A stretch of DNA of 64,000 bases from Acidovorax sp. GW101-3H11 (lineage in GTDB: Bacteria > Pseudomonadota > Gammaproteobacteria > Burkholderiales > Burkholderiaceae_C). Under the pieces are notes generated by a model. The model was not told the origin of the DNA, ran no database searches, and saw nothing but the letters and a program-made list of their open reading frames with translations. Within the stretch, counting starts at the first letter, position 1; each line of letters begins with the position of its first letter. This document shows, piece by piece, positions 6,225 through 63,252 of this stretch. The stretch lies in assembly GCF_001633105.1 (NCBI RefSeq), contig NZ_LUKZ01000017.1:1-64000 (forward strand), given 5' to 3'. A program made the position numbers and the translations under genes.

Positions 6225-7000
6225 GTGTCTCCCCCCACCAGGTTCCTGCCCTGCTGCTGGCCGCTGGCCGGGGCGAGCGCATGCGCCCCCTGACCGACAC
6301 CACCCCCAAGCCCCTGCTGCAGGTGCAGGGCCAGCCGCTGCTGCAGTGGCACCTGCAGGCTTTGCTGGATGCGGGTGTCCGGCGCGCGGTGATCAACACC
6401 GCCTGGCTGGGCCACCAGATCAGCGAGTATTTTTCAGATGCTTTTGGCCGTTACCGCGCGACTGGTATGTCTGAGCAGCTATCAATTTCATACTCGCACG
6501 AAGGGGTGGACTTTGGTGGTGCGCTGGAAACCGCTGGCGGCATCGCACGTGCGCTGCCCCAACTGGGGGCCGTGTTCTGGCTGGCGGCAGGTGATGTGTT
6601 TGCCCCCGACTTCGTGTTCGACAGCGCCGCCGTGGCGGCCTTCGAGGCCAGCCCCCACCTGGCCCACCTGTGGCTGGTGCCCAATCCGGCGCACAACCCG
6701 CGTGGCGACTTTGGCTTGTCGGCAGACGGGCTGGCGCTGAACCTGCCCGTCGATGACCGCGCGCCACGCTACACCTACAGCACCATCGCCCTGTTGCGCG
6801 CCGAGCTGTTTGCGGCGCCCTGGTGCGACATTCCGCCGGGCAACCCCGGCGGCATCAAAGCCCCGCTCGCGCCGCTGCTGCGCCGTGCGATGGACAATGG
6901 CCGCGTCAGCGCGCAGCTCTACACCGGCCGCTGGACCGATGTGGGCACGCCCGAGCGGCTGGCCGAACTCAACTTCCTTGCTTGCGACCCCCTCCCATGA
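6221..7000 (+). CDS. murU: N-acetylmuramate alpha-1-phosphate uridylyltransferase
   Basis: A 259-residue nucleotidyltransferase of the cell-wall recycling pathway that makes UDP-MurNAc from MurNAc-1-phosphate. The N-terminus has the signature LLLAAGRGERMRPLT and the following KP (TTPKPLL). FWLAAGDVFAPDF carries the metal-binding Asp, and the C-terminus ends GRWTDVGTPERLAEL. Residues about 70-92 (YFSDAFGRYRATGMSEQLSI) coincide with a reverse-orientation copy of the 65-base dispersed element, and the protein is some 30-35 residues longer than Pseudomonas MurU as I recall it. The ATG overlaps the speD stop, and its own stop overlaps pepP. No amgK kinase partner lies next to it here. Confidence 0.85.
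   Translation: MSVSPHQVPALLLAAGRGERMRPLTDTTPKPLLQVQGQPLLQWHLQALLDAGVRRAVINTAWLGHQISEYFSDAFGRYRATGMSEQLSISYSHEGVDFGGALETAGGIARALPQLGAVFWLAAGDVFAPDFVFDSAAVAAFEASPHLAHLWLVPNPAHNPRGDFGLSADGLALNLPVDDRAPRYTYSTIALLRAELFAAPWCDIPPGNPGGIKAPLAPLLRRAMDNGRVSAQLYTGRWTDVGTPERLAELNFLACDPLP
6428..6494 (-). repeat. 65-base dispersed element, copy inside murU
   Basis: On the minus strand this reads GAAATTGATAGCTGCT, then GTCGCGCGGTAACGGCC, then CTGAAAAATA. It shares the TTGATAGCTGCT start, the GCGC/GGCC core and the A-rich tail of the copies at 40428 and 63183. It lies wholly inside murU and is read through in frame. Confidence 0.7.
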
Positions 7001-8391
7001 CCACCACCGTGCCTGCTTCCGTCTACGCCCAGCGCCGCGCGCACCTGGCTGCCCAGCTGGGCCCAGGGGGCATCGCCATCATCCCCACAGCGCCCGAGCG
7101 CCCGCGCAACCGCGATACGGATTTTCTGTACCGCCACGACAGCTACTTCTATTACCTGACCGGATTCACTGAGCCCGGCGCCTGCCTGGTGCTGGCCGAA
7201 GGCGGCCGCAGCACGCTGTTCTGCCAGCCCAAGGACCTGGAACGCGAGATCTGGGATGGCTACCGCCTGGGCCCCGCCGCCGCGCCTGCCGCCCTGGGCG
7301 TGGACGCCGCACATTCGATGGCCGAGATGGACAGCAAGCTGCCGCGCCTGCTCGAAAACACGGCCTGCGTCTGGTACCCGTTTGCGACCCACAGCGGCCT
7401 GGCCGCACGCGTGGAGGGTTGGCTCAACGTGGTGCGCGGTCGTGTGCGCTACGGCGCCGTTTGCCCCGCCGAGCAGAACGACCTGTGCACGCTGCTCGAC
7501 GAGATGCGCCTGTTCAAGGACGCGTACGAGCAGGACATCATGCGCCGCGCCAGCGCCATCAGCGCGCAGGCCCACATCCGCGCCATGCAGCGCGCCGCCC
7601 GCATGCTGCGCGCCGGAGAGGATGTGCGCGAGTACCACCTCGAAGCCGAACTGCTGCACGAGTTCCGCCAGCACGGATCGCAGTACCCCGCCTACAACTC
7701 CATCGTGGCCGCCGGGGCCAACGCCTGCGTGCTGCACTACCGCGCCGATGCCGCGCCGGTGCGCGACGGCGAGCTGGTGCTGATCGACGCAGGCTGCGAA
7801 CTGCATGGCTACGCCAGCGACATCACGCGCACCTTCCCGGCCAATGGCAAGTTCACCGGCCCGCAGCGTGCGCTGTACGACCTGGTGCTGGCCAGCCAGG
7901 ATGCGGCTGTGGCGGCCACCAAGGCCGGTGCCCGCTTCAACGACCCGCACGACGCCACCGTGGCCGTGCTGGCGCAGGGCATGCTGGACCTGGGCCTGCT
8001 CGACAAGAACAAGGTGGGCACCGCGCAGGACGTGATCGACCAGCGCGCCTACTTCCAGTTCTACATGCACCGCACCGGCCACTGGCTGGGCATGGATGTG
8101 CACGACTGCGGCAGCTACGTGGAGCCCGGCGAGGTGGGCCAGACCAGCGAACGCAAGGACCCACTTTCGGGCGAAACCATCACCAACCGGCCCAGCCGCA
8201 TCCTGCGGCCCGGCATGGTGCTGACCATCGAGCCCGGCATCTACGTGCGCCCTGCCGAGGGTGTGCCCGAGCAGTTCCACCACATCGGCATCCGCATCGA
8301 GGACGATGCCATCGTGACCGACACCGGGTGCGAGCTGATCACGCGCGGCGTGCCAGTCAAGGCCGACGAGATCGAGGCCCTGATGCGATGA
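6997..8391 (+). CDS. pepP: Xaa-Pro aminopeptidase P
   Basis: A 464-residue cytosolic metallopeptidase (M24B, pita-bread fold) that removes an N-terminal residue before proline. An aminopeptidase-P N-terminal domain (residues 1 to about 140, with RNRDTDFLYRHDSYFYYLTG) precedes the catalytic domain. The dinuclear metal ligands are visible: the two Asp in LIDAGCELHGYASDITRTFP, His in HRTGHWLGMDVHD, Glu in LTIEPGIYV and Glu in IGIRIEDDAIV. The start overlaps the murU stop and the stop overlaps the next gene, so it belongs to the four-gene coupled unit. Length is normal for the family. Confidence 0.95.
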   Translation: MTTTVPASVYAQRRAHLAAQLGPGGIAIIPTAPERPRNRDTDFLYRHDSYFYYLTGFTEPGACLVLAEGGRSTLFCQPKDLEREIWDGYRLGPAAAPAALGVDAAHSMAEMDSKLPRLLENTACVWYPFATHSGLAARVEGWLNVVRGRVRYGAVCPAEQNDLCTLLDEMRLFKDAYEQDIMRRASAISAQAHIRAMQRAARMLRAGEDVREYHLEAELLHEFRQHGSQYPAYNSIVAAGANACVLHYRADAAPVRDGELVLIDAGCELHGYASDITRTFPANGKFTGPQRALYDLVLASQDAAVAATKAGARFNDPHDATVAVLAQGMLDLGLLDKNKVGTAQDVIDQRAYFQFYMHRTGHWLGMDVHDCGSYVEPGEVGQTSERKDPLSGETITNRPSRILRPGMVLTIEPGIYVRPAEGVPEQFHHIGIRIEDDAIVTDTGCELITRGVPVKADEIEALMR

Positions 8392-9152: not shown

Positions 9153-9236
9153 CGGGTGCTGCGGGTAACCCGCATGTAACCGCTTCGTGTGAGAATTGAA
9201 ACTCGATTACATCCCCAACGACCGAGAGAAAGAGAC

Positions 9237-21378: not shown

Positions 21379-22134
21379 ATGAGTACCGCCATCCTGAGTG
21401 CACTGACCGAAGAGCAAAGCTCCCTGGTCGAGCACCTTGCCCACCCGCAGCGCGTGATGCACGCAGGCCGCGCCTTTTGGCGGGGCGAGCTGCACGACCG
21501 GCCGGTGGTGCTGGCGCTGTCGGGCATTGGCAAGGTGGCGGCCGCCACCACGGCCACGGCGCTGATCGAGCATTTTGGTGTGGCCCGCATCGTGTTCACC
21601 GGGGTGGCCGGGGGCGTGGGCGACGGCGTGAACGTGGGCGACGTGGTGGTGGCGCAGGACTACATCCAGCACGACATGGACGCTTCGCCCCTGTTCCCGC
21701 GCTGGGAGCTGCCGGGCTATGCGCGCAGCCGCCTGCCCTGTGACCCGGTCTTGACTGCTCTGCTTTTGGAAGCGGCTAAGGCATGTGTAGCGGGCGGTAG
21801 CGGCCCATTTGGCTTGAAAAAATCGCCCGATCAGGCGCCCCACCGCGTGCACCACGGCCTGGTGGCCAGCGGCGACCGCTTTGTCTCCACCGCCACTGAA
21901 TCCACCCAGCTGCGCGCCGCGCTGCGGGGCGCCGGGCACGATGTGCTGGCCGTGGAGATGGAAGGCGCCGCCGTGGCCCAGGTCTGCCAGGACTACGGCC
22001 TGCCCTTCGCCGCCGTGCGCACCATCTCCGACCGCGCCGACGACACCGCCCACGGCGACTTCGCCCTGTTCGTGCAGACCGTGGCCAGCCGCTATGCCGA
22101 GCACATGGTGCAGACGCTGCTTCAAAAGCTATAA
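21379..22134 (+). CDS. mtnN: 5'-methylthioadenosine/S-adenosylhomocysteine nucleosidase
   Basis: A 251-residue nucleosidase that removes adenine from MTA and SAH, linking polyamine synthesis, methylation and methionine salvage. LALSGIGKVAAATTATALI, FTGVAGGVGDGVNVGDVV, AVEMEGAAVAQVC and the active-site TISDRADD motif are all present. Residues about 126-149 (LLLEAAKACVAGGSGPFGLK) are encoded by a plus-orientation copy of the 65-base element, and the chain is about 20 residues longer than Escherichia coli MtnN. A second copy directly downstream supplies the last codons and the TAA stop (AAAAGCTATAA). It stands alone after the fadD terminator and converges on corA. Confidence 0.9.
   Translation: MSTAILSALTEEQSSLVEHLAHPQRVMHAGRAFWRGELHDRPVVLALSGIGKVAAATTATALIEHFGVARIVFTGVAGGVGDGVNVGDVVVAQDYIQHDMDASPLFPRWELPGYARSRLPCDPVLTALLLEAAKACVAGGSGPFGLKKSPDQAPHRVHHGLVASGDRFVSTATESTQLRAALRGAGHDVLAVEMEGAAVAQVCQDYGLPFAAVRTISDRADDTAHGDFALFVQTVASRYAEHMVQTLLQKL
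21754..21824 (+). repeat. 65-base dispersed element, copy inside mtnN
   Basis: Runs from TGCTCTGCTTTTGGAAGC to GGCTTGAAAAAATC, with TAGCGGGCGGTAGCGGCCC in the core. It is in frame within mtnN and falls where other family proteins have no matching segment. Confidence 0.7.
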
Positions 22135-22192
22135 ATTTGATAGCTTAAAAGGCAATGTGGACGCGCGCAAAGGCCGATTTTTGCTCAAATTT
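22124..22192 (+). repeat. 65-base dispersed element at the mtnN stop
   Basis: AGCTAT-AAATTTG-ATAGCT forms a perfect 6-bp stem with a 7-base loop. It is followed by GACGCGCGCAAAGGCCG and an AT-rich tail. The TAA of mtnN lies inside the hairpin (GCTATAA). Confidence 0.8.
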
Positions 22193-22263
22193 TCAGCAAA
22201 AATTAGCCTGTAGTGTCTGTCGTAGCAGCACCAAGCCAAGGGCGCGCCCCATCCCAGCGCCAC

Positions 22264-32079: not shown

Positions 32080-33333
32080 TCAGAACGCGTCAATGCCCAG
32101 CAGTGCGGCCGCGTTCAAGGCGGTGGCGCGCGCGGCTTCGGGTGTGGCGCCGGTCATGTTGAGGTGGCCCATCTTGCGGCCCCGCTTGGCATCGCGCTTG
32201 CCGTACAGGTGCAAATGGGTGCCGGGCAGGGCCAGCACCTGGTCCCACGGGGGCGTCTGTTCGGTGTCGCCCTGGGCGAACCACAGGTCGCCCAGCAGGT
32301 TGAGCATCACGGCGGCGCTGTGCTGGCGGGGCTGGGTCAGTGGCAGGTGGGCCATGGTGCGCACCTGCAGCTCGAACTGCGACACATCGCAGGCGTTCTG
32401 GCTGTAGTGGCCGCTGTTGTGCGGGCGCGGGGCGATCTCGTTGACCACCAGGCTGCCGTCCTGCAGCACGAAGAACTCCACGCAGAGCACGCCCACGTAC
32501 TGCAGGCCTTCTGCTACAGATTTCGCAGCTGCTACCGCTTGTGCAGCCAGCGCAGAAGGCAGATTTCCTTTATACACCTCGGTCACGGCCAGGATGCCGT
32601 CGCGGTGCAGGTTGCGCTGCACGGGCAGGTGCACCATGGCGCCGTCAGCACCGCGCGCCACGATCACCGAGCATTCCAGCGCCAGCGGCAGCATCTTCTC
32701 CAGCACGCAGGGCACCTTGCCCACCGCATCCCAGGCGGCGGCCAGTTCGGCGGGCGTCTTCACGCGCACCTGGCCCTTGCCGTCGTAGCCCATGCGGGCC
32801 GTCTTCAGGATGCCGGGAAGGAGGTCGGCGGACACGGCGGCCAACTGCTGTGCCGTCTCGATCACCGCATAGGGCGCACAGGGCACGCCGCAGGCCACAA
32901 AGTGGGCCTTTTCCCGCGCGCGGTCCTGCGCGACAGAGACTGCGCTGGCGGCGGGCGACACCGGGCGCTGCGCGGCCAGGGCGGCCAGCGCGGCGGCGGG
33001 CACGTTCTCGAATTCGGTGGTCACCGCATCGGCCACGCGGGCCAGTGCGGCCAGGCCCTGCGGATCTTCGTAGTCTGTCTGAATGTGGTGGTGGCTCACC
33101 AAGCCCGCCGGGCTGGTGGGGTCGGCGTCCAGCACGGCCGTGAAGTAGCCCATGGCCTGGGCCTGGTGCACGAACATGCGGCCCAGCTGGCCGCCGCCGA
33201 GCACGCCCAGCGTGCTGCCGGGCAGCAGTGGAGCCCCCACGCTTGCCACTGCGTGTGCGGCGCTGCCCCCCAAGGGGGCCTTCGCGCCTTCGGGCGGCCG
33301 TGCGGCGCTCAATGGCTTGGCAGAATCGGTCAT
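32080..33333 (-). CDS. purK: N5-carboxyaminoimidazole ribonucleotide synthase
   Basis: A 417-residue ATP-grasp enzyme of purine synthesis that carboxylates AIR. The fold begins at [12 protein letters not shown] near residue 44, and [13 protein letters not shown]-type, [17 protein letters not shown] and [13 protein letters not shown] motifs follow. Two parts look acquired. Residues 8-33 ([20 protein letters not shown]) are encoded by a GC-rich repeat, so the true start may be an internal site. Residues about 252-275 coincide with a copy of the 65-base element. Both make the protein longer than relatives. The ATG overlaps the purE stop (ATGA). Confidence 0.93.
32509..32578 (+). repeat. 65-base dispersed element, antisense copy inside purK
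   Basis: Reads TTCTGCTACAGATTTCGCAG, then CTGCTACCGCTTGTGC, then CCAGCGCAGAAGGCAG and TTTCCTTTATACAC on the plus strand. purK reads through it in frame on the other strand. Confidence 0.6.
33235..33312 (-). repeat. GC-rich repeat encoding the PurK N-terminal extension
   Basis: On the minus strand: GCCGCACGGCCGCCCGAAGG, then CGCGAAGGCCCCCTTGG and GGGGCAGCGCC, ending CAGTGGCAAGCGTGGGGGC. This is the style of intergenic repeat I associate with Comamonadaceae, here placed in the first codons of purK. Confidence 0.6.
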
Positions 33334-33987: not shown

Positions 33988-34896
33988 ATGATTGACGTCA
34001 CCGTAGAGAACTTTGAAGCCGAGGTGGTTGCCGCCTCGATGAACGTGCCCGTGCTGGTGGACTTCTGGGCGCCCTGGTGCGGCCCCTGCAAGTCGCTGGG
34101 CCCGGTGCTGGAAAAGCTCGAAACCGAATACGCGGGCCGCTTCAAGCTCGCCAAGATCGACTCCGACCAGGAGCAGCAGTTGGCCGGGATGTTCGGCATC
34201 CGCAGCATTCCCACCTGCGTGCTGCTCATGAACGGCCAGCCCGTGGACGGCTTCATGGGCGCCTTGCCCGAAGGCCAGGTGCGCGCCTTCCTCGACAAGC
34301 ATGTGCCCACCGCCGAAGAAATGGTGGCCGAAGCCGAGGAAGAAGAAGCCCAGGACGCCCTGGCCGATGGCGACACGGGCACGGCCCTCGAAAAACTGCA
34401 GCACGCGGTGGTCACCGATCCCTCCAACGACGATGCACGCTTCGACTACGTCAAGCTGCTGCTGCAGCTGCGTCGTGAGGACGATGCCAAGGTTGCGTTT
34501 GCCCCTGTGATCGCCAAAGCCGCCGTGTCGCGCAAGCTCGGCGCGCTGAAGGTCTGGATGGATGCTATTGATTTTGTAGCTATTGGAGCATATGGGGAGC
34601 GCGTAGAGGCCGATTTTGAGGCGAAAATCACCGCCAACAAACGCGATTTCGACACCCGCTACGCCCGCGCCCGCTGGCTGATGGCCCAGCAGCGCTGGAC
34701 CGACGCCATGGACGAGTTGCTCGAAATCCTCATGCGCGACAAGGCCTGGAACGAGGAAGCCGCGCGCAAGACCTATGTGGCCATCCTCGAAGTCATCGAG
34801 GCCCCCAAGCCCAAGGTGGCAGAGGGCCAGATCCCGCCCGAAGACCCGGTGGTGGCCACGTACCGGCGCCGGTTGTCGAGCGTGGTGCTGAGCTGA
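33988..34896 (+). CDS. cnoX: Thioredoxin-fold chaperedoxin with TPR-like C-terminus
   Basis: A 302-residue CnoX/YbbN-type protein, cytosolic. The thioredoxin domain (residues 1 to about 108) keeps an active CxxC, WAPWCGPC with Cys31 and Cys34, unlike Escherichia coli CnoX. An acidic linker ([16 protein letters not shown]) leads to a TPR-like helical domain. The family protects substrates of GroEL and DnaK during oxidative (bleach) stress; action here is inferred. Residues about 192-214 ([20 protein letters not shown]) come from a plus copy of the 65-base element, seen also as a local drop in GC. The next lipoprotein gene starts 10 bases after the stop. Confidence 0.9.
34561..34629 (+). repeat. 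65-base dispersed element, copy inside cnoX
   Basis: GCTATTGATTTTGTAGC hairpin-like start, then GAGCGCGTAGAGGCCG core and GGCGAAAATC tail. In frame within cnoX and AT-richer than the flanking codons. Confidence 0.75.
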
Positions 34897-39470: not shown

Positions 39471-40427
39471 GTGAAGCCCAATGTTGTCAGTGCCGATGTG
39501 CTGTTCGAGGAATTCCGTGGCCTCCTGAAATGGGAGTGGGTCGCGGGCCTGGGGGCTTCGGAGCGGCGGTTTGACGAAGTGGCCGTGCGTTCTGCGCGGT
39601 CCGGGGCCGATCTGGTCGGCTACCTCAACTACATCCATCCCTACCGCGTGCAGATTCTGGGTGAGCGCGAAATCGCTTACCTGAGCAACGCGTCACCCGA
39701 CGACTGCAAGCGCCGCATCGCCCGCATCGTGACGCTAGAGCCGCCCGTGCTGGTGCTGGCCGACAACCAGACCGCGCCCGATGCGCTGGTGTCCATGTGC
39801 GAGCGCGCGCAGATCCCGATGTTCTCCACGCACGAGTCGTCGGCGTTTGTCATCGACGTGCTGCGCGCCTACCTGTCCAAACACTTTGCCGACCGCACCA
39901 CGATGCACGGCGTGTTCATGGACATTCTGGGCCTGGGCGTGCTGATCACCGGCGAGTCGGGCCTGGGCAAAAGCGAGCTGGGCCTGGAGCTGATCTCGCG
40001 CGGCAACGGTCTGGTGGCCGACGATGCCGTGGATTTCTTCCGCATCAACCAGACCACCATCGAGGGCAAATGCCCCGAGCTGCTGCAGAACCTGCTGGAA
40101 GTGCGCGGTATTGGCCTCTTGGACATCCGCGCCATCTTTGGCGAGACGGCCGTGCGCCGCAAGATGCGCCTCAAGCTCATCGTGCACCTGGTGCGCAAAG
40201 AGACGCTGGAGCGCGACTACGAACGCCTGCCCTACGAGCCGCTCACGCAGGACGTGCTGGGCGTGCCTGTGCTCAAGGTCGTGATCCAGGTGGTGGCCGG
40301 CCGCAACATCGCCGTGCTGGTCGAAGCCGCCGTGCGCAACACCATCCTGCAGCTGCGCGGCATCGACACCTACCAGGAATTTGTCGAACGCCACCGCCGC
40401 GCCATGGAGCGCGACACGGGTGGTTAG
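39471..40427 (+). CDS. hprK: HPr kinase/phosphorylase
   Basis: A 318-residue bifunctional enzyme that phosphorylates and dephosphorylates HPr on Ser. The N-terminal domain (1 to about 130) is followed by the catalytic domain with H146 ([17 protein letters not shown]), the P-loop GESGLGKS at 161-168, and the C-terminal signature [18 protein letters not shown]. The start codon is GTG; no in-frame ATG gives a better fit. In proteobacteria HprK works beside PtsN and PtsH to control carbon and nitrogen responses; ptsH is not in this window. A 65-base repeat begins one base after the stop. Confidence 0.95.
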
Positions 40428-40494
40428 CCTGCTCTGTATTTGATAGCTGCTTACGCTTGATGGGCGGGCGCAAAGACCAATTTTGAGTCCAAAG
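40428..40494 (+). repeat. 65-base dispersed element downstream of hprK
   Basis: Reads CTCTGTATTTGATAGCTGCT, then TACGCTTGATGGGCGGGCGC, then AAAGACCAATTTTGAGTCC and AAAG. It starts directly after the stop codon and serves well as a reference copy. Confidence 0.8.
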
Positions 40495-40544
40495 ACGGGT
40501 GCGTACTGGCGCGCCCCAGGCCAGTGCTCCCGCGCAAGGGCCGC

Positions 40545-43848: not shown

Positions 43849-46572
43849 ATGCAAGACAAATACTCTCCCCAAGACGTCGAGCGCGCCGCGCACGACCACT
43901 GGACCGCCACCGACGCCTACCGCGTGACGGAAGACACCAGCAAGAAGAAGTTCTACGCCTGCTCGATGCTGCCCTACCCCAGCGGCAAGCTGCACATGGG
44001 CCATGTGCGCAACTACACCATCAACGACATGCTCACGCGCTACCTGCGCATGAACGGCCACAACGTCTTGATGCCCATGGGCTGGGACGCCTTCGGCCTG
44101 CCCGCTGAAAACGCTGCGCTGAAGAACGGCGTGCCACCGGCCAAGTGGACGTACGAAAACATCGCGTACATGAAGAAGCAGATGCAGGCCATGGGCCTGG
44201 CCATCGACTGGAGCCGCGAAGTCGCCACCTGCGACCCCGAGTATTACAAGTGGAACCAGTGGCTGTTCCTGAAGATGCTGGAAAAGGGCATTGCCTACCG
44301 CAAGACCCAGGTCGTGAACTGGGACCCGGTGGATCAGACCGTGCTGGCCAACGAGCAGGTGATTGACGGCAAGGGCTGGCGCACCGGCGCCACGGTCGAA
44401 AAGCGCGAGATCCCTGGCTACTACCTCAAGATCACCGACTACGCCGAAGAGCTGCTGGGCTTTGTGACCGGCGACAAGCTGCCCGGCTGGCCCGAGCGCG
44501 TGAAGCTGATGCAGGAGAACTGGATTGGCAAGAGCGAAGGCGTGCGCTTTGCGTTCACGCACGACATTGCAGGCGACGACGGCACGCTGATTGGCGACGG
44601 CAAGATGTACGTGTTCACCACGCGCGCCGACACCATCATGGGCGTGACCTTCTGCGCCGTGGCGCCCGAGCACCCGCTGGCCGCACATGCCGCCAAAACC
44701 AACCCTGCGCTCCAAGCCTTCATCGAAGAGTGCAAGAGCGGTGGCACCACCGAGGCCGAGCTGGCCACGCAAGAGAAAAAGGGCGTGCCCACGGGCCTGT
44801 ACGTCACCCACCCGCTCACCGACGAAAAGGTCGAGGTCTGGGTCGGCAACTACGTGCTCATGGGCTATGGCGACGGCGCCGTGATGGGCGTGCCCGCCCA
44901 CGACGAGCGCGACTTTGCGTTTGCGCTCAAGTACGGTATCGAGATCAAGCAGGTGGTGCTGGTGGACGGCGAGACGTTCAACTACCACCAGTGGCAAGAC
45001 TGGTACGGCGACAAGCAACGCGGCGTGACCATCAACTCCGACAGCTTCAGTGGCCTGTCGTACAAGGAAGCCGTGAACGCCGTGGCCCATGCGTTGGAGC
45101 AAAAGGGCCTGGGCGAGAAGAAGACCACCTGGCGCCTGCGCGACTGGGGCGTGAGCCGCCAGCGCTACTGGGGCACGCCGATCCCGATCATCCACTGCGA
45201 CGAGCACGGCGCCGTGCCCGTGCCCGAAAAAGACCTGCCCGTGGTGCTGCCGCAAGACTGCATCCCCGACGGCTCGGGCAACCCGCTGCACAAGCACGAA
45301 GGCTTCCACGCGGGCGTGACCTGCCCCGTGTGTGGCAAGCCCGCCCGCCGCGAGACGGACACCATGGACACCTTCGTGGACAGCTCGTGGTACTTCATGC
45401 GGTATTGCGACCCCAAGAACGCCGACGCGATGGTGGCCGATGGCACCGCTTACTGGATGCGAGACCAGCAACATGCCACTGGCGGCAGCGGCATGGACCA
45501 GTACATCGGTGGCATCGAACACGCCATCCTGCACTTGCTGTACGCCCGCTTCTGGACCAAGGTCATGCGTGACCTGGGACTGGTCAAGGTCGATGAGCCC
45601 TTCACCAAGCTGCTCACGCAAGGCATGGTGCTCAACCACATCTACAGCCGCCGTACCGCCAAGGGTGGCAAGGACTACTTCTGGCCGCATGACGTGGAGC
45701 ATGTGCTCGATGAAGGCGGCAAGATCATCGGCGCCAAGCTGAAGAACGAAGCCACCAGCGGCGACGGCATGCAGCCGGTGGGCACGCCCATCGACTACGA
45801 GGGCGTGGGCACCATGTCCAAGTCCAAGAACAACGGCGTGGACCCGCAGGACCTGATCGAGAAGTACGGCGCCGACACGGCCCGCCTGTACACCATGTTC
45901 ACCGCCCCGCCCGAAGCCACGCTGGAGTGGAACGACGCGGCGGTGGAAGGCAGCTACCGCTTCCTGCGCCGCGTGTGGAACTTTGGCGTCAAGCTCTCGG
46001 CCATCGACCGCGATGCGGCCCTGGCCAGCGTGGCCGGTGCCAGCAGCCTGCAGGACGTGCAGTTTGGCAAGGAAGCCAAGGCCCTGCGCCTGGAGATCCA
46101 CAACGTGCTCAAGCAGGTGGACTACGACTACCAGCGCATGCAGTACAACACCGTGGTCTCGGGCGCGATGAAGATGATCAACGCGCTGGAAGACTTCAAG
46201 GCCACCGACTCGGCCGGTGCCCAGGTGGCGCTGATCGAAGGCTTTGGCATCCTGCTGCGCAGCCTGTACCCTGCCACGCCCCACATCGCCCACAGCCTGT
46301 GGACGGGCCTGGGCTACGCGGGCGCGCTGGGCGATCTGCTCGACGCGCCCTGGCCGCAGATCGATGCCGGTGCGCTGGTGCAGGACGAGATCGAACTCAT
46401 GCTGCAGGTCAACGGCAAGCTGCGCGGTTCCATCCACGTGCCCGCCCAGGCCGACAAGGCCGAGATCGAGCGCATTGCGCTAGCCAGCGAGGCCTTTGTG
46501 GCCCAGGCCGCAGGCGCTCATCCGAAGCGCGTGATCGTGGTGCCAGGTCGTCTGGTGAACGTGGTGGTCTGA
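43849..46572 (+). CDS. leuS: Leucine--tRNA ligase
   Basis: A 907-residue class I aminoacyl-tRNA synthetase. The HIGH motif is HMGH at 49-52 ([13 protein letters not shown]) and the KMSKS motif is TMSKSK at about 655-660. The CP1 editing domain lies between ([21 protein letters not shown]), with a leucine-specific domain and zinc-like [25 protein letters not shown] region. The C-terminal anticodon-binding and tRNA-docking domains are complete. lptE starts four bases after the stop, the usual leuS-lptE arrangement. Confidence 0.98.
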
Positions 46573-46576: not shown

Positions 46577-47080
46577 ATGAACAAACGCACCCTGCTCAGC
46601 CTGGCCCCCGTGGCCCTGTTGTCTGCCTGCGGATTCCGGCTGCGTGGCGTGCCGGAGTTCGGCTTCAACTCGCTCTACATCGCCGCCCCCGCCAGCTCGC
46701 CGCTGGCGCGGGAGCTGCAGCGCACGCTGGAGGGCTCGGGCGGCCAGCTGCAGCTGCTGCGCGACCCGGCGGCCATGCCCACGGCCGAGGCCATTCTGGA
46801 TTTGCTGCAAGAGCAGCAGGAGCGTGCGGTGGTGGGGCTCAACGCCTCGGGCCAGGTGCGCGAGCTGCAGCTGCGCCTGCGCATCAAGTTCCGCCTGCGC
46901 ACCCCGGCAGGCGCGGAGCTGATCCCCGAGACCGAGCTGCTGCAGCAGCGCGACATCAGCTACAACGAAACCATCGCCCTGGCCAAAGAGGCGGAAGAGG
47001 CGCTGCTCTACCGCAACATGCGGACCGACCTGGTGCAGCAGCTCATGCGGCGCCTGTCGCTCACGCGTCCGGCCAAATAA
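46577..47080 (+). CDS. lptE: LPS-assembly lipoprotein LptE
   Basis: A 167-residue outer-membrane lipoprotein that plugs LptD for lipopolysaccharide insertion. The lipobox LLSAC is followed by the typical GFRLRGVPEFGFNSLYI. Four bases after leuS and probably cotranscribed. In many proteobacteria holA is the next gene; here holA lies about 12.3 kb away at 59383, beyond an accessory block. A 65-base repeat begins directly after the TAA. Confidence 0.94.
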   Translation: MNKRTLLSLAPVALLSACGFRLRGVPEFGFNSLYIAAPASSPLARELQRTLEGSGGQLQLLRDPAAMPTAEAILDLLQEQQERAVVGLNASGQVRELQLRLRIKFRLRTPAGAELIPETELLQQRDISYNETIALAKEAEEALLYRNMRTDLVQQLMRRLSLTRPAK

Positions 47081-47142
47081 TTCGACGCAAAAATGCCATC
47101 TGCGCGCGGCGGGCATGCCTTTTGAGCTATTGTTTTGATAGC
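47081..47142 (-). repeat. 65-base dispersed element after lptE (left of accessory block)
   Basis: On the minus strand: GCTATCAAAACAATAGC hairpin (AGCTAT/ATAGCT), TCAAAAGGCATG, CCGCGCGCAGATGGC core and a T/A-rich tail. It is in the same orientation as the copy at 58135-58199, with which it shares AAAGGCATG. Confidence 0.75.
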
Positions 47143-47160
47143 TTGCGAGGCGTGCTCTTG

Positions 47161-48648
47161 CTACGGCGTGTCCCCCAGAGGCGCGCTCTGGCGCCGCACA
47201 AAGCGGCCCGCCCGCGCCCCCGTGGCGCGCTGCGCAGCGGTGTAGCTCAGCACGCCGTTCACCCACACCTGCTCGATGCCCTCGCTGAACTGCTGGGGCT
47301 GCTCGAACGTGGCCAGGTCGCGCACACGCTCGGGGTCGAACACCACCACATCGGCCATGTGCCCCGCCAACAGCAGGCCACGCCCGCCCAGGCGAAACCG
47401 CTGGGCCGACAGGCCCGTCATCTTGTGCACGGCCTCTTCGAGCTGCAGCAGGCCTTTGTCGCGCCAGTAACAGGCCAGCACGCGCGGGAAGGCGCCCCAC
47501 AACCGGGGATGTGGCCGTTCATCGTGTGGCAGCCCGTCCGATCCGATCATGGACAGCGGGTGCGCAATCACGCGCTCCACATCGTCCTCGCGCATCTGAA
47601 AGTAGCAGGCCCCGCCGGGCTTGAGGCGCACGGTGGCCTCCTGCTGAGGCACGCCCCACTCGCGCGCAATGTCGGCCAGGTAGCGCCCGGCCATCTCGGG
47701 GTGGGGCTGGCTGCCGGTGATGAGGATGTCGATGATGCCGTCCACCAGGTCCTCGCGCAGCACGGTAGAGCCAGCGGTGTACGGGTACACGTCCATCGCA
47801 ATCTCTTGCTGCTGGGCCAGTTGATCGATCAGCGGCAGTGTCTCGCGCGTGCGGCCCCAGTTGGCGGGCCCGGCGCATTTGTGGTGCGAGATGACCAGCG
47901 GCAGGCCCGACTGGCGGGCGGTCAGCGCCGCCTCCTGCAACGCAGGCAGGATGCCCGCAAGCTCGTCACGGATGTGCGTGGCATACACGCCGCCGTGGCG
48001 CGCGGCCACCGAGGCCACGGCCACCAGTTCATCCACATCGGCCGCATAGGCCTCGCTGTAGAAGATGCCCGACGACAGGCCCAGCGCCCCGGCGGCCATG
48101 GCTTCTTCCATGTCGGCGGCCATGGCGGCGCGCTCGTCGGCGGTGGCGGTTTGCCGCAGGTCGGCCAGGTGGCGCATGCGCAGGGCTGTGTGGCCCATCA
48201 GTGCGGCCACGTTCACGGCGGGCTGGGCGGCGTCCACGGCACGGGCGTAGTCGGCCATGCTGGCGTGGCGAAACTGCAGGCGCCCCAGCAGCGAGAGCGG
48301 GGCGAGCGGGCTGTCGGTCACCACCGGCGCCAGCGAGATCCCGCAGTTGCCCACGATGACAGTGGTGATGCCCTGCGAGAGCTTGGGCAGCATGGTGGGC
48401 GCGTCCAGCACGGCGGCGTCGTCGTGCGTGTGCACGTCGATGAAGCCGGGGGCGATCACGCGGCCGGTGCAGTCCACCTCGGTGAAGTGTTCGCAGGCCC
48501 GGGCACGGGCCAGGGCGGCGGGGTCGATCTGGCCTGGCTCGGCCAGTGCGGTGATGCGCTCGCCTTCAATCAGCAGGTCGCCCACCCAGCCGGGGCGGGT
48601 GGTGCCGTCCACGATGCGGCCATTGCTCAGCAGCGTTGCGTGCGCCAT
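47161..48648 (-). CDS. N-acyl-D-amino-acid deacylase (D-aminoacylase)
   Basis: A 495-residue amidohydrolase that frees D-amino acids from N-acyl-D-amino acids. Metal-site motifs are GFIDVHTHDD near residue 66, ISHHKCAG, and the diagnostic ending GSDGLPHDERPHPRLWGAFPRVL in part (catalytic Asp in GSDG). TGLSAQRFRLGGRGLLLAGHMADVVVFDPE, read as two halves, is the usual C-terminal beta-sandwich segment. The ATG at 48648 has AGAGGAATG before it and lies just past the RpiR stop. Last gene of a long minus-strand group: transporter, deaminase, regulator, deacylase. It converges on lptE. Confidence 0.9.
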   Translation of the reverse strand: MAHATLLSNGRIVDGTTRPGWVGDLLIEGERITALAEPGQIDPAALARARACEHFTEVDCTGRVIAPGFIDVHTHDDAAVLDAPTMLPKLSQGITTVIVGNCGISLAPVVTDSPLAPLSLLGRLQFRHASMADYARAVDAAQPAVNVAALMGHTALRMRHLADLRQTATADERAAMAADMEEAMAAGALGLSSGIFYSEAYAADVDELVAVASVAARHGGVYATHIRDELAGILPALQEAALTARQSGLPLVISHHKCAGPANWGRTRETLPLIDQLAQQQEIAMDVYPYTAGSTVLREDLVDGIIDILITGSQPHPEMAGRYLADIAREWGVPQQEATVRLKPGGACYFQMREDDVERVIAHPLSMIGSDGLPHDERPHPRLWGAFPRVLACYWRDKGLLQLEEAVHKMTGLSAQRFRLGGRGLLLAGHMADVVVFDPERVRDLATFEQPQQFSEGIEQVWVNGVLSYTAAQRATGARAGRFVRRQSAPLGDTP

Positions 48649-57107: not shown

Positions 57108-57110
57108 GCC

Positions 57111-58070
57111 ATGACCGCAACCAAGCAAGCCGTGTGGGATGTGGTGGCGCTGGGCGAGGCGCTGGTGGAGTTCAACCAGACGCGTCCTGGCGAGCCGCAG
57201 TACCTGCAGGGCTTTGGGGGCGACACCAGCAACGCGGTGATTGCCGCCGCCCGCGCGGGCGCACGCACGGCCTACCTCACGCGCCTGGGCAGCGATGCCT
57301 TTGGCCAGGCCTTGCTGGACCTGTGGGCGCGTGAAGGCGTGGACACCACGGCGGTGGAGCGCGATGCGCAGCACCCCACGGGCATCTACTTTGTGACGCA
57401 CGGCGCAGCGGGGCACGAATTCAGCTACCTGCGTGCAGGCTCGGCCGCGAGCCGCATGGCGCCTGCGTGGCTGGCAGATGAGTCGGTGAAGGGACCCGCT
57501 GCTGTGCTGCAGCAGTGCCGCATCCTGCATGTGTCGGGCATCTCGCTGGCGGTGTCGGCCTCCGCCTGCGACACGGCCTACGAGGCCATGCGCGTGGCCC
57601 GGGCCGCCGGTGCGCGCGTGGCGTTCGACCCCAACCTGCGCCTCAAGCTCTGGCCGCTGGCACGGGCGCGGGCCTGCATCGCGCATGCGGTGTCGCTGTG
57701 CGACATCTTCCTGCCAGGGCTCGACGACATGGCCGCGCTGCTGGGCCTGAGCGATGCGGATGCGATTGCCGACTGGGGCCACGCGCAGGGCGCGGCCACG
57801 GTGGTCGTCAAGCTCGGGGCCGACGGCGTGCTGCTGAGCAGCGCCGACCCCGCCGTGCCACGCCAGCGTGTGCCGGGCCGCAGCGTGGCGCTGGTGGATG
57901 CCACGGGGGCGGGTGATTGCTTTGACGGCAACCTGCTCGCGCGCCTTGCGCTGGGGGATGACCTGGCCGCTGCGGTGCGCTATGCCAACACGGCGGCATC
58001 GCTGGCCGTGCAGGGTTTTGGCGCCGTGGCGCCGCTGCCCACGGCGCAGCAGGTGCAGGCGCTGCTGTAA
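57111..58070 (+). CDS. PfkB-family sugar kinase, 2-keto-3-deoxygluconate kinase-like
   Basis: A 319-residue ribokinase-fold kinase. The N-terminal signature is ALGEALVEFNQTR with GGDTSNAVIAAARAG. The C-terminal PfkB signature VDATGAGDCFDGNLLARLAL contains the catalytic Asp near residue 267. FDPNLRLKLWPL is reminiscent of KdgK. The substrate may be a 2-oxo sugar acid, but sequence alone cannot decide. It starts four bases after the ridA stop. Its presence with an RpiR (phosphosugar-binding) regulator suggests that the imported compound has a sugar part. Confidence 0.87.
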   Translation: MTATKQAVWDVVALGEALVEFNQTRPGEPQYLQGFGGDTSNAVIAAARAGARTAYLTRLGSDAFGQALLDLWAREGVDTTAVERDAQHPTGIYFVTHGAAGHEFSYLRAGSAASRMAPAWLADESVKGPAAVLQQCRILHVSGISLAVSASACDTAYEAMRVARAAGARVAFDPNLRLKLWPLARARACIAHAVSLCDIFLPGLDDMAALLGLSDADAIADWGHAQGAATVVVKLGADGVLLSSADPAVPRQRVPGRSVALVDATGAGDCFDGNLLARLALGDDLAAAVRYANTAASLAVQGFGAVAPLPTAQQVQALL

Positions 58071-58123: not shown

Positions 58124-58134
58124 GGGGCGGCGGG

Positions 58135-58199
58135 TTTTTGAAGGAAACAAGCCGTTACCGCGTGACCATCATGCCTTTGCAGCTATCAAATTGGTAGTG
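58135..58199 (-). repeat. 65-base dispersed element right of accessory block
   Basis: On the minus strand: ACTACCAATTTGATAGCTGC, AAAGGCATGATGGTC, ACGCGGTAACGGC, ending CCTTCAAAAA. Same orientation as the copy at 47081-47142. Confidence 0.75.
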
Positions 58200-58227
58200 A
58201 ATGGGCCTGCGCCCGCTGTGCCGTGCC

Positions 58228-59181
58228 TTACACAGGCCGTGTCCGCATCAGCGTGCTCTTGCCAAACAGCGACTCCACCAGGTCCACCGCCAGCACAGCG
58301 GTCTTGTTGCGCACGTCCAGGGCGGGGTTCAGCTCCACGATGTCGAGCGAAGCCAGGCGGCCGCTGTCGGCAATCATCTCCATGCACAGCTGCGCCTCGC
58401 GGTAGGTGGGGCCGCCGGGCACGGTGGTGCCCACGCCGGGGGCAATGTCGGGGTCCAGAAAATCCACATCAAAGCTCACATGCAGGTGGGTGTGGGCGTC
58501 CATGCCCGCCAGCGCCCGCTCCATCACCTGGCGCATGCCCACCTCGTCGATGGCGCGCATGTCAAACACCTCCAGGCCCTGCTCGTGCACAAAGCGCTTT
58601 TCGCCCGCGTCCACGCTGCGGATGCCGATCTGGCGGATCTGCTCGGGCCGCAGCGCCGGGCCACCGCCGGGCATGGCGGCCAGCTGCGTCAGCTCGGCCG
58701 GGCCAAAGCCGCACAGGCAGGCCACGGGCATGCCGTGCACGTTGCCGCTGGGGGTGAGTTCGCTGGTGTTGAAGTCGGCATGCGCGTCGAGCCACAGCAC
58801 GCGCAGCTTCTTGCCGCTTTCTGCGCAGTGGCGGGCCACGGCGCTGATGCTGCCCAGGCCCAGGCTGTGGTCGCCGCCCAGCAGAATGGGCAGGTGGCCC
58901 AGCTGCAGCTCGGCATACACGGCGTCGTACACCAGCCGGTTCCACTGCGCCACCTCGGGCAGGTGGCGGTAGCCGTTCACCGGGGGCAGCCAGGGGTTGG
59001 AGGGGCCGCCCAGGTTGCCCCGGTCAAACACCTGCAGCCCATGCAGCTCCAGCGCCGCCTGCAGCCCCGCCACGCGCAGGGCCTCGGGGCCCATCGACGC
59101 ACCGCGCGCCCCGGCGCCAATGTCGGTGGGCGCACCAATCAGGCTGGTGGGCTGGGCGCTGCGCAGGGTGTTGGGGGGCAT
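58228..59181 (-). CDS. rocF: Arginase/ureohydrolase-family protein
   Basis: A 317-residue ureohydrolase, probably arginase. Binuclear manganese motifs are ILLGGDHSLGLG, VLWLDAHADFNT and VSFDVDFLDPDIAPG. LIGAPTDIGAGARGASMGPEAL is the typical arginase N-terminus, and SGNVHGMPVA supports arginase over agmatinase. A hydrolysed arginine gives ornithine and urea. The start MPPNTLRSAQPTSL is chosen over a longer frame overlapping the holA promoter. It lies between the accessory block and holA and is divergent from holA. The gene name is assigned by family only. Confidence 0.88.
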   Translation of the reverse strand: MPPNTLRSAQPTSLIGAPTDIGAGARGASMGPEALRVAGLQAALELHGLQVFDRGNLGGPSNPWLPPVNGYRHLPEVAQWNRLVYDAVYAELQLGHLPILLGGDHSLGLGSISAVARHCAESGKKLRVLWLDAHADFNTSELTPSGNVHGMPVACLCGFGPAELTQLAAMPGGGPALRPEQIRQIGIRSVDAGEKRFVHEQGLEVFDMRAIDEVGMRQVMERALAGMDAHTHLHVSFDVDFLDPDIAPGVGTTVPGGPTYREAQLCMEMIADSGRLASLDIVELNPALDVRNKTAVLAVDLVESLFGKSTLMRTRPV

Positions 59182-59382
59182 GGTCAGGGCTTTCTGTGCG
59201 GGGGTGGACAAGGGCAGCGGCCAGGCCGCAGCGCGGGCGGTGGCGCCCGGGCATTCTCGGGGCTTTGGGTGCCAATGAACAGTGCGCGGGCTGATCAGTC
59301 CGCCATGGCCTTTGTGCACTGTGCGGGTGTCCACTGGCCATTTGCACAAAACCTGGCGGGGCAAGGCGATAAACTTTGCCGC

Positions 59383-60438: not shown

Positions 60439-60536
60439 GGGATGAGCGCCAGAGAACCGTCCAGACTGTGCTCGGCGGGTTTTCGCCCTTCGTGGCTCCA
60501 TCGGCTGTGGCTTGTGGCCCTGCATGAAAGGCTAGG

Positions 60537-61523: not shown

Positions 61524-61550
61524 CAGGCGTTTGCGTCTGATGATCGGACT

Positions 61551-61835
61551 TCACCCCTGTCCAACCACCCCCCGCGCCTTCTCTACCCACATCTGCAAAT
61601 TCGCCACCAGATCCTTCTGGCTGAACGAGCAGCTTTCCTCTGAAAACAGCGCGCTCGATTCCAGCCGGTCCAGCAGGTTCAGCAGCACCTCGCCGTAGCG
61701 CGGGGGCAGGGCGGCGAGCAGGGCCGTCTGCTGGCGGGCCAGGGTGCTCAGGGTGGCGGCGGTGTGGGCGCCGCGTTCAAAGGCCTGCAGGGCTTCGGTC
61801 AGAGTGGCGAGCTGGGCGGGGGCGGTGGTGGTCAT
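61551..61835 (-). CDS. Hypothetical protein, small helical
   Basis: A 94-residue soluble protein predicted almost entirely helical (LATLTEALQAFERGAHTAAT, LLNLLDRLESSALF, LVANLQMWVEKARGVV). I know no function; similar small proteins occur next to proA in Comamonadaceae as far as I recall. The start ATG at 61835 is chosen because the long upstream frame is antisense to proA. Divergent from proA with a 66-base gap. Confidence 0.6.
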   Translation of the reverse strand: MTTTAPAQLATLTEALQAFERGAHTAATLSTLARQQTALLAALPPRYGEVLLNLLDRLESSALFSEESCSFSQKDLVANLQMWVEKARGVVGQG

Positions 61836-61901
61836 GGCCGGGCAGTGGGAGTGAGTGGGGCAAGGCCGCAAGGGTAAAGCCAAGTGCGGCAAAATCGCCG
61901 A

Positions 61902-63182
61902 ATGAACGCCCTCCACGTCGCTGAATACACGCATTCTCTCGGTCTCCAGGCCAAAACGGCCTCTGCGCTGATGGCCAAAGCGCCTGCAGCTATCAAAAAC
62001 AAAGCACTCAAGGCGCTGGCACGGCTGCTGCGCGAGAACGTGGATGCGCTGCAGATCGACAACGCCCGCGATCTGGAGCGTGCCCGCGCCGCCGGGCTGG
62101 CCGAGCCCATGGTGGACCGCCTGAAACTCAGCCCCAAGGTGCTGGAGACCTGTGCCGAAGGCTGCGAGCAGCTCGCCGCCATGCCCGACATCATTGGCGA
62201 GATCCTCGGCATGAAGCAGCAGCCCAGCGGGATCCGCGTGGGGCAGATGCGCGTGCCGATTGGCGTGTTCGGCATGATCTACGAGAGCCGTCCCAACGTG
62301 ACCATCGAGGCCGCGTCGCTGTCGATCAAGAGCGGCAATGCCTGCATCCTGCGCGGTGGCTCCGAGGCGATCGATTCGAACAAGGCGTTGGCCAAACTCG
62401 TGCAGCAGGCGCTGGCCGAAGCGGGCCTGCCGCAAGACGCGGTGCAACTGGTGCAGACCACCGACCGCGAGGCCGTGGGCCAGCTGATTGCCATGCCGCA
62501 GTTTGTGGACGTGATCATCCCGCGCGGCGGCAAGGGCCTGATCGAGCGCATCAGCCGCGATGCCAAGGTGCCCGTGATCAAGCACCTGGACGGCAACTGC
62601 CACACCTATGTGGACGACCCCTGCGACGTCCCCATGGCGGTGAAGGTGGCCGACAACGCCAAAACCAACAAATACAGCCCCTGCAACGCGAGCGAAGGCC
62701 TGCTGGTGGCGCGCGGCGTGGCGGCGGAGTTTCTGCCAAAGATCGGCGCCGTATACGCCGCCAAGGGCGTGGAGATGCGCGGCTGCCCCGAGTCGCTGGC
62801 CATCCTTCAATCGGTGGCTGGTGCCCAGCTGGTGCCCGCCACCGAGCAGGACTGGAGCGAGGAATACCTGGCCCCGATCATCAGCGTGAAGATCGTGGCG
62901 GGCTTGGACGAAGCCATTGCCCACATCAACCACTATTCGAGCCACCACACCGATGCCATCCTGACGACGAACCATGTCCACGCCCAGCGCTTCCTGCGCG
63001 AGGTGGATTCGGCCAGCGTGATGGTGAACGCGAGCACGCGTTTTGCCGACGGCTTCGAGTACGGCCTGGGCGCCGAAATTGGCATCAGCACCGACAAGTT
63101 CCATGCGCGCGGGCCGGTGGGCATCGAGGGGCTGACCTCGCTCAAGTACGTGGTGCTGGGCGAGGGCGAGGTGCGGGGCTAA
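61902..63182 (+). CDS. proA: Gamma-glutamyl phosphate reductase
   Basis: A 426-residue NADPH-dependent enzyme of proline synthesis. The catalytic Cys is in [14 protein letters not shown] near residue 241. [34 protein letters not shown] and [20 protein letters not shown] are family motifs, and the ending [11 protein letters not shown] is normal. The region [13 protein letters not shown] differs from the common form with PGVCNA. Bases 61936-62000, encoding residues about 12-33, resemble a reverse copy of the 65-base element, yet the protein aligns with relatives without an obvious insertion. Start MNALHVAEY; a Met six codons earlier is also in frame. Confidence 0.95.
61936..62000 (-). repeat. 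Possible 65-base element, copy inside proA
   Basis: On the minus strand: GTTTTTGATAGCTGCAGGCG, then ATCAGCGCAGAGGCCG and TTTTGGCCTGGAGACC. The first 15 and the core bases fit the family well, but no insertion in ProA is evident, so chance similarity is possible. Confidence 0.4.
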
Positions 63183-63252
63183 TTTGCTATTTATTCGATA
63201 GCTAATAACGTAAGCCAGTCGCGCGAAGAGGCCCCATTTCGCTATGAAAATC
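63183..63252 (+). repeat. 65-base dispersed element overlapping the trkA start
   Basis: GCTAT-TTATTCG-ATAGC hairpin, then CAGTCGCGCGAAGAGGCCCC core and CGCTATGAAAATC tail. The ATG of trkA is within the tail, so any ribosome binding signal for trkA lies inside the element. Confidence 0.75.

Follow-up and report, generated by a model that had tools for sequence, protein, structure and literature searches.

A dispersed motif of about 65 bases in Acidovorax sp. GW101-3H11, a candidate DNA uptake sequence of the Comamonadaceae

Motif copies in the window and in the host genome

The window analyzed here, a stretch of 64,000 nucleotides from Acidovorax sp. GW101-3H11 (contig NZ_LUKZ01000017.1, positions 1 to 64,000), carries ten copies of a long motif, both within and between genes. 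One copy lies antisense and in frame inside a MurU-like nucleotidyltransferase gene (6221-7000, plus strand) at 6428..6496 on the minus strand (E 5e-8); it scored 32-60 bits in 8/8 genomes and was recognized by eye in 15/17 sister sequences, with a remnant in genome G002 and none in G005 (MurU DNA was compared from 17 sisters; G011 gave no sequence). The gene of an MTA/SAH nucleosidase (MTAN; 21379-22134, plus strand) is associated with two plus-strand copies: a partial one without the 5' hairpin inside the gene (21755..21823; E 6e-5), which reaches 47-55 bits in G010, G006 and G016, and the best copy of the window (22126..22194; E 3e-15), which overlaps the stop codon and whose site holds the motif in 10/11 genomes scored, G005 being the exception. 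Further copies are found antisense inside purK (32080-33249, minus strand) at 32511..32579 on the plus strand (E 2e-3; E 3.5e-9 with a model of the dialect B described below) and, in sense and in frame, inside a thioredoxin-TPR (Trx-TPR) gene (33988-34896, plus strand) at 34562..34630 on the plus strand (E 3e-7), the latter also being present in Polaromonas L046. Between genes, a plus-strand copy (40429..40497; E 1e-9) directly follows the stop codon of the gene at 39498-40427, and two minus-strand copies occupy convergent gaps, one (47077..47144) between the genes at 46577-47080 (plus) and 47161-48648 (minus), the other (58133..58200) between those at 57111-58070 (plus) and 58228-59181 (minus). 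A ProA-like gene (61902-63182, plus strand) contains a weak antisense copy (61940..62007, minus strand), with 28-47 bits in 11 genomes, and is separated from a TrkA-like gene by a plus-strand copy (63184..63251; E 8e-12), the 3' end of which includes the ATG of the next gene (about 63244). A segment of leuS (45994..46068, plus strand) is free of the motif here; in six sister genomes a segment of the same length contains it.

Nine of these copies were detected at E<1e-2 with a profile built from the host genome and the tenth, in the ProA-like gene, with a profile from sister genomes (E 7e-8), while the best match in the reversed window had an E of 1. The original prediction of a dispersed family in both orientations thus held at these sites (six copies on the plus strand, four on the minus strand), with a count of ten instead of about eleven. 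Searching 854 kb of the host genome with the profile returned 96 copies of the ~65-base motif (~1 per 9 kb; ~600 genome-wide by extrapolation), and the model search against control sequence that had been proposed gave 0 matches at E<0.1 in the reversed 854 kb. Patterns of both dialects, A and B, are likewise strongly over-represented in both orientations when compared with reversed controls. The family is real, and its motif holds 55-61 bits of information over 68 positions. The small hairpin GCTAT-N7-ATAGC, which had been taken as common to the copies, is indeed enriched (181 occurrences genome-wide versus 1 for the backwards control); in its perfect form it is not general, being exact in three window copies, and many copies have GCTTC, GCTAC or ACT as 5' arm. 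A Pfam scan of open reading frames over window copies gave no match in 4/4 cases. Another repeat with some copies in coding sequence, BRE, has been described in Acidovorax, Polaromonas and Delftia; it is ~90 bp long, 69% GC in Bordetella and often in tandem, with 1-29 copies per genome (PMC3110155). Our motif resembles it in occurring in Acidovorax and relatives and inside some genes, but differs in length, GC content and copy number, a distinction drawn from the description of BRE and not from its sequence.

Copies inside and between genes

As predicted, five copies lie in coding sequence without breaking the frame (MurU, MTAN, PurK, Trx-TPR and ProA). In-gene copies show a reading-frame bias, and at their sites codon usage is overridden and amino acids are altered: GC3 is 0.38 inside the copies versus 0.88 in the remainder of the same genes. 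The accompanying proposal that host proteins exceed their relatives by roughly one element length (~22 aa) applied to 0/8 host proteins. Seven of the eight do differ from homologues at the motif site, by -3 to +12 aa: MurU and MTAN by +12 each, acyl-CoA dehydrogenase by +8, LeuS by +6, AroE by +5, Trx-TPR by +4 and an FAD oxidase by -3, with 0 for PurK, and the additional 12 aa of MurU are also found in motif-free congeners. The LeuS segment is 36 aa long in 12 genomes, six with and six without the motif, and for LeuS, PurK and Trx-TPR the motif-free congeners match in length or nearly so, with 65-68 nt between the flanks. PurK of Burkholderia aligns across the motif site without an indel, i.e. 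a distant orthologue has the same protein segment, which had been named in advance as an observation against insertion. Comparing orthologous loci with and without the motif therefore revealed no clean, element-length insertion boundaries in genes, and we reject clean insertion there on the basis of the lengths of host proteins relative to homologues and of the equal-length LeuS alleles.

The picture between genes is different in one respect. In the gap after the gene at 39498-40427, the motif-free alleles of three relatives (G001, G005 and G017) are ~52-61 bp shorter between matching flanks, and in the gap 59446/61551 the motif-free allele of G005 is also shorter, though less cleanly. The orthologous comparison that had been suggested thus uncovered element-sized presence/absence at the first of these gaps and a less clean case at the second; given the former, copies may have been inserted or deleted between genes in the past. 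Otherwise, sites and orientations are mostly shared across the genus, and no comparable copy is missing from a 225-kb region (21/21 retained between G000 and G012, 7/7 between G000 and G013). In the 854 kb, 83 convergent gaps contain 26 copies, 322 tandem gaps 40 and 101 divergent gaps 5, and in tandem gaps 24 copies are oriented with the genes and 16 against; these and the in-gene counts are approximate, because the gene calls came from a codon-usage script.

Spacing, base pairing and clade-specific dialects

The spacing within the motif is nearly fixed. Dialect-A copies show no net length change in 96/96 cases, and in the sister set 9 of the 64 copies with E<=1e-2 deviate by a single base. 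Across 31 genomes, correctly spaced patterns (ending GSC) matched 284 times for A and 1501 times for B, whereas shifting the spacing by a single base (GCC or GGC at the end) left 0 and 2 matches. Columns of the motif vary independently, AT and GC stretches alternate, and positions 53-57 are either an A-run or a T-run, interchangeably. Permutation tests for covariation gave a lowest p of 0.038 among 21 pairs in dialect A and, in the sister set, one pair of 15 with p 0.0015 in the best register, none of them convincing; the sister set had been reduced from 67 to 55 copies by removing 3 with E>1e-2 and 9 with a one-base length difference. Compensatory changes, as expected for the RNA structure that had been considered originally, are thus not supported in either set of copies, and a two-hairpin RNA or terminator, persuasive by eye in single copies, failed these tests. 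We read the family as a long motif spanning some 50-68 bp that is probably recognized as double-stranded DNA.

The core of the motif differs between genomes, being of type A in G000, G012 and G013 and of type B in most others. In a held-out test, 23/28 occupied sites were A-like in the A genomes and 37/39 were B-like in the B genomes, so that most orthologous sites, coding DNA included, carry the dialect of their own clade; exceptions are the PurK and ProA copies, which remain B-like in A genomes. The A trio and the pair G004/G017 are clades with a support of 1.000 each, and the dialects follow the tree. There are at least two clade-specific dialects and probably a third (C), recognized by eye, and the motif is almost totally lost in G002 and G005. 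It is also rarer in DNA of atypical composition, a proxy for newly acquired DNA: low-GC 10-kb segments held 1 motif in 11 and the other segments 85 in 67, a comparison that is a proxy only and for which thresholds were chosen after the gaps had been seen. The B pattern was furthermore observed in six viral contigs, among which two pairs are identical in the sequence shown, and a gene cassette found in class 1 integrons carries a dialect-B copy.

A candidate uptake-sequence system and its alternatives

Uptake sequences have, as far as the two reports cover the subject, been described in only two bacterial families (PMC7811141, PMC3630211). We propose, with a probability of roughly 45%, that the Comamonadaceae have a third such system, which arose independently and uses an extra-long motif (~65 bp) with clade dialects. 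The most likely role of the motif, which we rate at even odds, would be as the uptake signal by which the type IV pilus machinery of these Comamonadaceae recognizes DNA of their own kind. Motif-bearing DNA would be taken up preferentially and then enter homologous recombination, and biased uptake together with recombination could build and maintain copies wherever they are tolerated, mostly directly after genes and sometimes in loosely constrained protein parts. If the receptor preference shifted in a lineage, most sites would drift to the new dialect; if the system were lost, sites would decay by substitution in genes and between genes also by deletion. Two of these steps we infer, namely that the uptake machinery would read the motif and that this drive would maintain it.

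Like the DUS of Neisseriaceae, whose dialects are congruent with phylogeny (PMC3630211), the motif has many dispersed copies in both orientations, often near gene ends and tolerated inside genes, with lineage dialects that match the tree, and type IV pilus competence is known in the Comamonadaceae; it differs in its unrelated sequence, its length (~65 bp versus 10-12 bp), its much sparser occurrence and the one intergenic site with element-sized presence/absence. With the USS of Pasteurellaceae, which change by point mutation and are depleted in newly acquired DNA (PMC7811141), it shares a core with spaced AT tracts, in-place change in coding DNA, subtypes, scarcity in new DNA and a reading-frame bias, whereas its sequence is different, its length greater (USS ~31 bp) and its density lower (USS of H. 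influenzae, ~1 per kb; PMC7811141). The short motif at ~1 per kb that is typical of DUS and USS was thus not what we found, with 55-61 bits over 68 positions at ~1 per 9 kb. Experimental background comes from reports that Acidovorax and Verminephrobacter are naturally transformable, that A. temperans is transformed only by DNA of its own species and that uptake by V. eiseniae is selective (PMC4212676); the genomes known to be searched here are from strains other than those of these experiments, and a homology barrier could be an alternative cause of the own-species restriction. The co-occurrence of competence genes with the motif is only partly supportive: PilT was above cut-off in 31/31 genomes and DprA in 30/31, and ComEC is absent from the motif-free G005, but the nearly motif-free G002 retains ComEC, PilT and DprA, and in the motif-bearing G003 (a draft of 640 contigs) ComEC was not found, both of which count against the uptake reading. 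So does the intergenic presence/absence, since uptake sequences are reported as non-inserted, and so do the length and sparseness of the motif, the B-like PurK and ProA copies of the A genomes and the length differences in seven of the eight host proteins; the depletion in islands would fit any old vertical element.

An unlikely alternative is an ancient mobile element, similar to REPIN, RPE or PATE, whose spread predates the genus or falls in its early history; it would be immobile today, homogenized within lineages by gene conversion and decaying through substitution in genes and deletion between them. The palindromic halves and intergenic bias of the motif, features shared with REP/REPIN, are in favor of it, as is the one intergenic gap where three relatives with matching flanks differ by about an element length. 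The proposed search for a REP-type transposase did recover PF01797 genes (1-3 matches in each of the 12/12 genus members searched), and the motif lies 3' of such a gene in 5/10 loci at E<0.01, plus one weak case. However, PF01797 genes are not specific to motif-bearing genomes, occurring also in the motif-free G005, in the nearly motif-free G002 and in families without the motif, which speaks against a RAYT/REPIN system as the explanation. No turnover, neither gain nor loss, was seen among the 21 comparable copies of G000 and G012, while across the genus some intergenic sites do vary in the presence of the motif. Rickettsia palindromic elements (RPEs) are inserted segments; they are scattered through the genome, and those within genes are translated in frame. 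The motif is like them in the latter two properties, but the analogy drawn originally is weak for in-gene copies, as 0/8 host genes differ by an element length, PurK having no insertion at all. Against any mobile element stand further the 96 diverged copies without net indel, the equal flank distances in LeuS, PurK and Trx-TPR with and without the motif, and the very efficient gene conversion that a concerted switch of most sites would demand.

Marginally less probable still is that the motif binds a protein of chromosome organization, supercoiling or repair and persists through selection acting on the cell, with dialects arising from co-evolution of protein and site. The near-fixed spacing, the independent columns, the alternation of AT and GC and the exchangeable runs at positions 53-57 all fit such a site, as does the preference for gene ends and convergent gaps, which is also a property of E. 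coli BIMEs. Yet selection would have to convert hundreds of long sites individually, copies inside genes go against codon usage and alter the amino acid sequence, and G002 and G005 have lost the motif almost wholly. An RNA element (a terminator, 3' UTR stabilizer or small RNA) would explain the location after stop codons and the stem-like arms with a T-run in many copies, but is very improbable in view of the unconvincing covariation, the occurrence in both orientations even in tandem gaps (24 with versus 16 against the genes), the many copies with an A-run in place of the T-run, the antisense copies inside genes and an Rfam scan of the window without a match at the gathering threshold. Under either the mobile-element or the protein-site reading, one would still have to explain why most copies, those in genes included, switched in concert.

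If the uptake-sequence reading is true, uptake sequences would arise repeatedly in bacteria, the present one being a third system unrelated to the two known, and the published own-species-only transformation in Acidovorax would have a ready explanation. The genus would then offer genus-wide data on the joint specificity switch of hundreds of sites, and the motif would serve as a watermark traceable into other DNA, such as the class 1 integron cassette, and would be of practical use in transforming these bacteria.

The motif family and its dialects

The hairpin pattern GCTAT-N7-ATAGC matches the host genome (5.44 Mb) 181 times and its backwards reading once. A search profile derived from 854 kb of this genome (contig C1, most of contig C2 and the window) detected 96 non-overlapping motif copies at E<1e-2, and the reversed 854-kb sequence gave no match at E<0.1, which bears out the dispersed family of the original prediction; extrapolation from the 854 kb gives ~600 copies per genome. 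For the window, about eleven copies had been claimed and ten were found, in both orientations as stated (six on +, four on -), and five of them lie in genes, agreeing with the predicted minimum of at least five. The consensus in the host genome, TTGCTATAAATTTGATAGCTATTAACGCATAACCGTCGCGCGCAAACGGCCATTTTTGCTCAAATTTT, carries ~61 bits of information against background, distributed along its whole length, with a near-invariant TAGC at positions 16-19. None of the 96 host copies shows a net length change across the motif model, one-base length deviations occur in 9 of 64 copies of the sister-genome set, and patterns shifted by one base matched 0 and 2 times in 31 genomes.

An RNA structure had also been considered, but permutation tests on dialect A (lowest pairing p 0.038 among 21 pairs) and on the sister set (one pair with p 0.0015 among 15, best register) gave no convincing excess pairing or covariation in the motif. 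The strongest linked pair lies in positions 53-57. These hold either a T-run or an A-run, and at positions 30-37 TGATGG(A/T)C alternates with TATCCATC, the two being nearly reverse complements; sub-blocks of the motif are perhaps accepted in either strand sense. Independent columns together with near-fixed spacing are to be expected of a motif recognised as double-stranded DNA.

The core of the motif exists in clade-specific versions. Dialect A (GC.T......CGCGCG; 284 matches in total) is found 105, 70 and 104 times in G000, G012 and G013 (the A trio) and 0-1 times in each other genus member. Dialect B (CGCTT-N7-AAGCGC; 1501 matches in total) is found 306 times in G006, 233 in G007, 207 in G010, 179 in G016, 145 in G009, 141 in G001, 102 in G014, 55 in G003 and 37 in G015, 3-17 times in the A trio, G004, G008, G011, G017 and G018, and not at all in G002 and G005; neither pattern matched in 12 other families or in the backwards control. 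When sites were scored with weight matrices whose training copies (86 from G000, 19 from G010) lay outside the window region, 28 of 30 were occupied in A genomes (23 A-like), 39 of 49 in B genomes (37 B-like), 12 of 18 in G004/G017 (11 nearer B) and 1 of 9 in G002/G005. Three PurK copies and two sites in G012 make up the five non-A-like sites of the A genomes; the ProA copies of these genomes are B-like in 3/3 cases. A third dialect, with a core like ...CACTAGCGCTTGCGGC..., seems by eye to mark the sister pair G004/G017. An unrooted five-protein tree gives full support (1.000) to the A trio and to G004/G017 as clades, and 0.983 to G002+G005; since the deeper nodes are weak, we can only infer that dialect B is the ancestral state. 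In MurU DNA the dialect switch is visible within the coding sequence. Regions orthologous to the window carry copies mostly at the same positions and in the same orientation, and the in-gene copies of purK and trx-TPR occupy the same places in a Polaromonas record (L046, 8097-8163 and 10153-10216), so these two sites are older than the genus.

Copies in gaps and within genes

According to gene calls by our own codon-usage script, on which all gap and in-gene counts are based, 26 copies lie in 83 convergent, 40 in 322 tandem and 5 in 101 divergent gaps >30 bp, with 23 inside genes and 2 at gene edges. Tandem-gap copies run in the direction of the genes in 24 cases and opposite in 16. The 5' end of the motif frequently adjoins a stop codon; besides, the window copy at 63184-63251 contains the start codon of a TrkA-like gene (~63244) and so covers a site of translation initiation (the names ProA, TrkA, gltB and Trx-TPR are presumptive, assigned from the sequences). 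In-gene copies use a single frame in 10 of 11 sense and 10 of 12 antisense cases, the favoured frames presumably being the stop-free ones, and third-position GC is 0.38 within them versus 0.88 elsewhere in the same genes.

Host proteins had seemed longer by about the size of the element, yet the 22-23 aa excess of an inserted copy appears in none of the eight compared. PurK aligns to Burkholderia PurK without indels across the motif; the differences from homologues at the motif are +4 aa in Trx-TPR, +5 in AroE, +6 in LeuS, +8 in an acyl-CoA dehydrogenase, +12 in both MTAN and MurU, and -3 in an FAD oxidase. The MurU excess (+8/+4 aa) is common to 18 genus sequences, including those of G002 and G005, and absent from 11 other-family orthologues. 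LeuS (named from its database match) is the clearest case of equal length with and without the motif: the segment measures 36 aa in 12 genomes, six with the motif (29-44 bits) and six without (-2 to -35 bits), and even the sister pair differs, with the motif present in G017 and absent in G004. In G016, amino acids near-identical to those of the motif-free allele are encoded by codons that suit the motif. Flank-anchored distances in motif-free targets were 68 nt in 24/24 comparisons for LeuS and 10/10 for PurK, 65-68 nt for Trx-TPR (18 comparisons) and 44-68 nt for MTAN against motif-free G005 (7 comparisons). Homologue lengths, same-length LeuS alleles and flank distances lead us to reject clean insertion in the genes compared. 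Within genes the pressure thus acts on DNA, and copies are gained or lost through substitution.

Presence and absence outside genes

The gap after gene 39498-40427 measures 180-185 nt in motif-bearing G000, G012, G013, G016 and G006 and 124-128 nt in G017, G001 and G005, where the flanks match and 7-16 nt stand at the motif place: an element-sized presence/absence, from insertion or deletion. The motif-free allele (orthologues of 40429-40497, ~55 bp shorter) is similar in G017, G001 and G005, non-sisters in the tree; it represents an ancestral empty site or else a deletion allele that recombination has spread. With the motif, the 59446/61551 gap measures 78-105 nt, versus 18 nt in G005, and downstream of ProA in G010, 137-138 nt of different sequence replace the motif. 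Given the element-sized difference, the motif may have had a mobile phase in the past. Within a 225-kb region of contig C1, 21/21 comparable copies are retained between G000 and G012 and 7/7 between G000 and G013.

A RAYT-like (PF01797) gene (loci L166-L169, L171-L178) lies upstream of a gltB-like gene in 4/6 loci, two of these from other families, and a motif copy (E<0.01) at the 3' side of the RAYT-like gene in 5/10 genus loci. The genus is placed in Comamonadaceae by its nearest named records. Searches of the open-access literature yielded no description of a palindromic element, intergenic repeat or uptake sequence in Comamonadaceae or Acidovorax, and the searched text of two REP papers mentions neither Acidovorax nor Comamonas (PMC3733652, PMC6006769). 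The betaproteobacterial repeat BRE, described as ~90 bp long, 69% GC in Bordetella, often tandem and present in at most 29 copies (PMC3110155), seems by this description to differ from the motif.

Plasmids carry copies as well. In the two integron regions inspected, a dialect-B copy (58 bits, B matrix) lies at 2488-2555 in both R46 (L246, NC_003292.1) and R751 (L247, NC_001735.4), inside a DUF1010 (PF06231) ORF that, in these class 1 integrons, separates the last resistance cassette from qacE or qacEdelta1; we take this cassette to be the orfD cassette. The query matched 1829 of 72,556 plasmid records at E<=0.01, with DUF1010 in 26/30 among the matches listed. The integron copy suggests that the cassette originated from a motif-bearing chromosome. 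Two good copies (46 bits) on a 373-kb Comamonas odontotermitis plasmid (L248, 856-923 and 2489-2556) adjoin chromosome-type genes (rpoN, glutaredoxin).

A candidate uptake signal

Of 78 10-kb windows, 11 have GC <0.62 and together contain one motif, whereas the remaining 67 contain 85 (permutation P 5e-5); nine windows of atypical codon usage contain none. The thresholds were chosen once the two longest stretches free of the motif, of 39 and 79 kb, were known. These low-GC stretches (L042-L044, C1 453816-493262; L032-L036, C2 149084-228484; parts read as N) are probably integrated islands and, by our reading, resemble metal-resistance islands, with metal-efflux and mercury/copper-type genes. 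Such depletion would also fit any old vertical element. ComEC is absent in motif-free G005, present in nearly motif-free G002 and absent in motif-bearing G003 (640 contigs); PilT exceeds the cut-off in 31/31 genomes and DprA in 30/31.

The properties of the motif recall uptake sequences. The DUS of Neisseriaceae is described from the core genome and from permissive regions and terminators, and its eight dialects agree with the phylogeny (PMC3630211). Uptake-sequence copies within genes are biased in reading frame, and those of Pasteurellaceae also show a gene-end bias (PMC2346458). Natural transformation is reported for Acidovorax temperans, A. facilis and Verminephrobacter eiseniae, in A. temperans by own-species DNA only; in V. 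eiseniae it requires type IV pili and persists when salmon DNA is present in 1500-fold excess, from which the authors inferred selective binding, naming no motif (PMC4212676). The own-species effect could also come from a homology barrier. Because of these likenesses we propose, at about even odds (roughly 0.5), that the motif is a candidate uptake signal. We infer the step from motif to uptake; biased uptake of motif-bearing DNA, followed by recombination, would then spread the signal.
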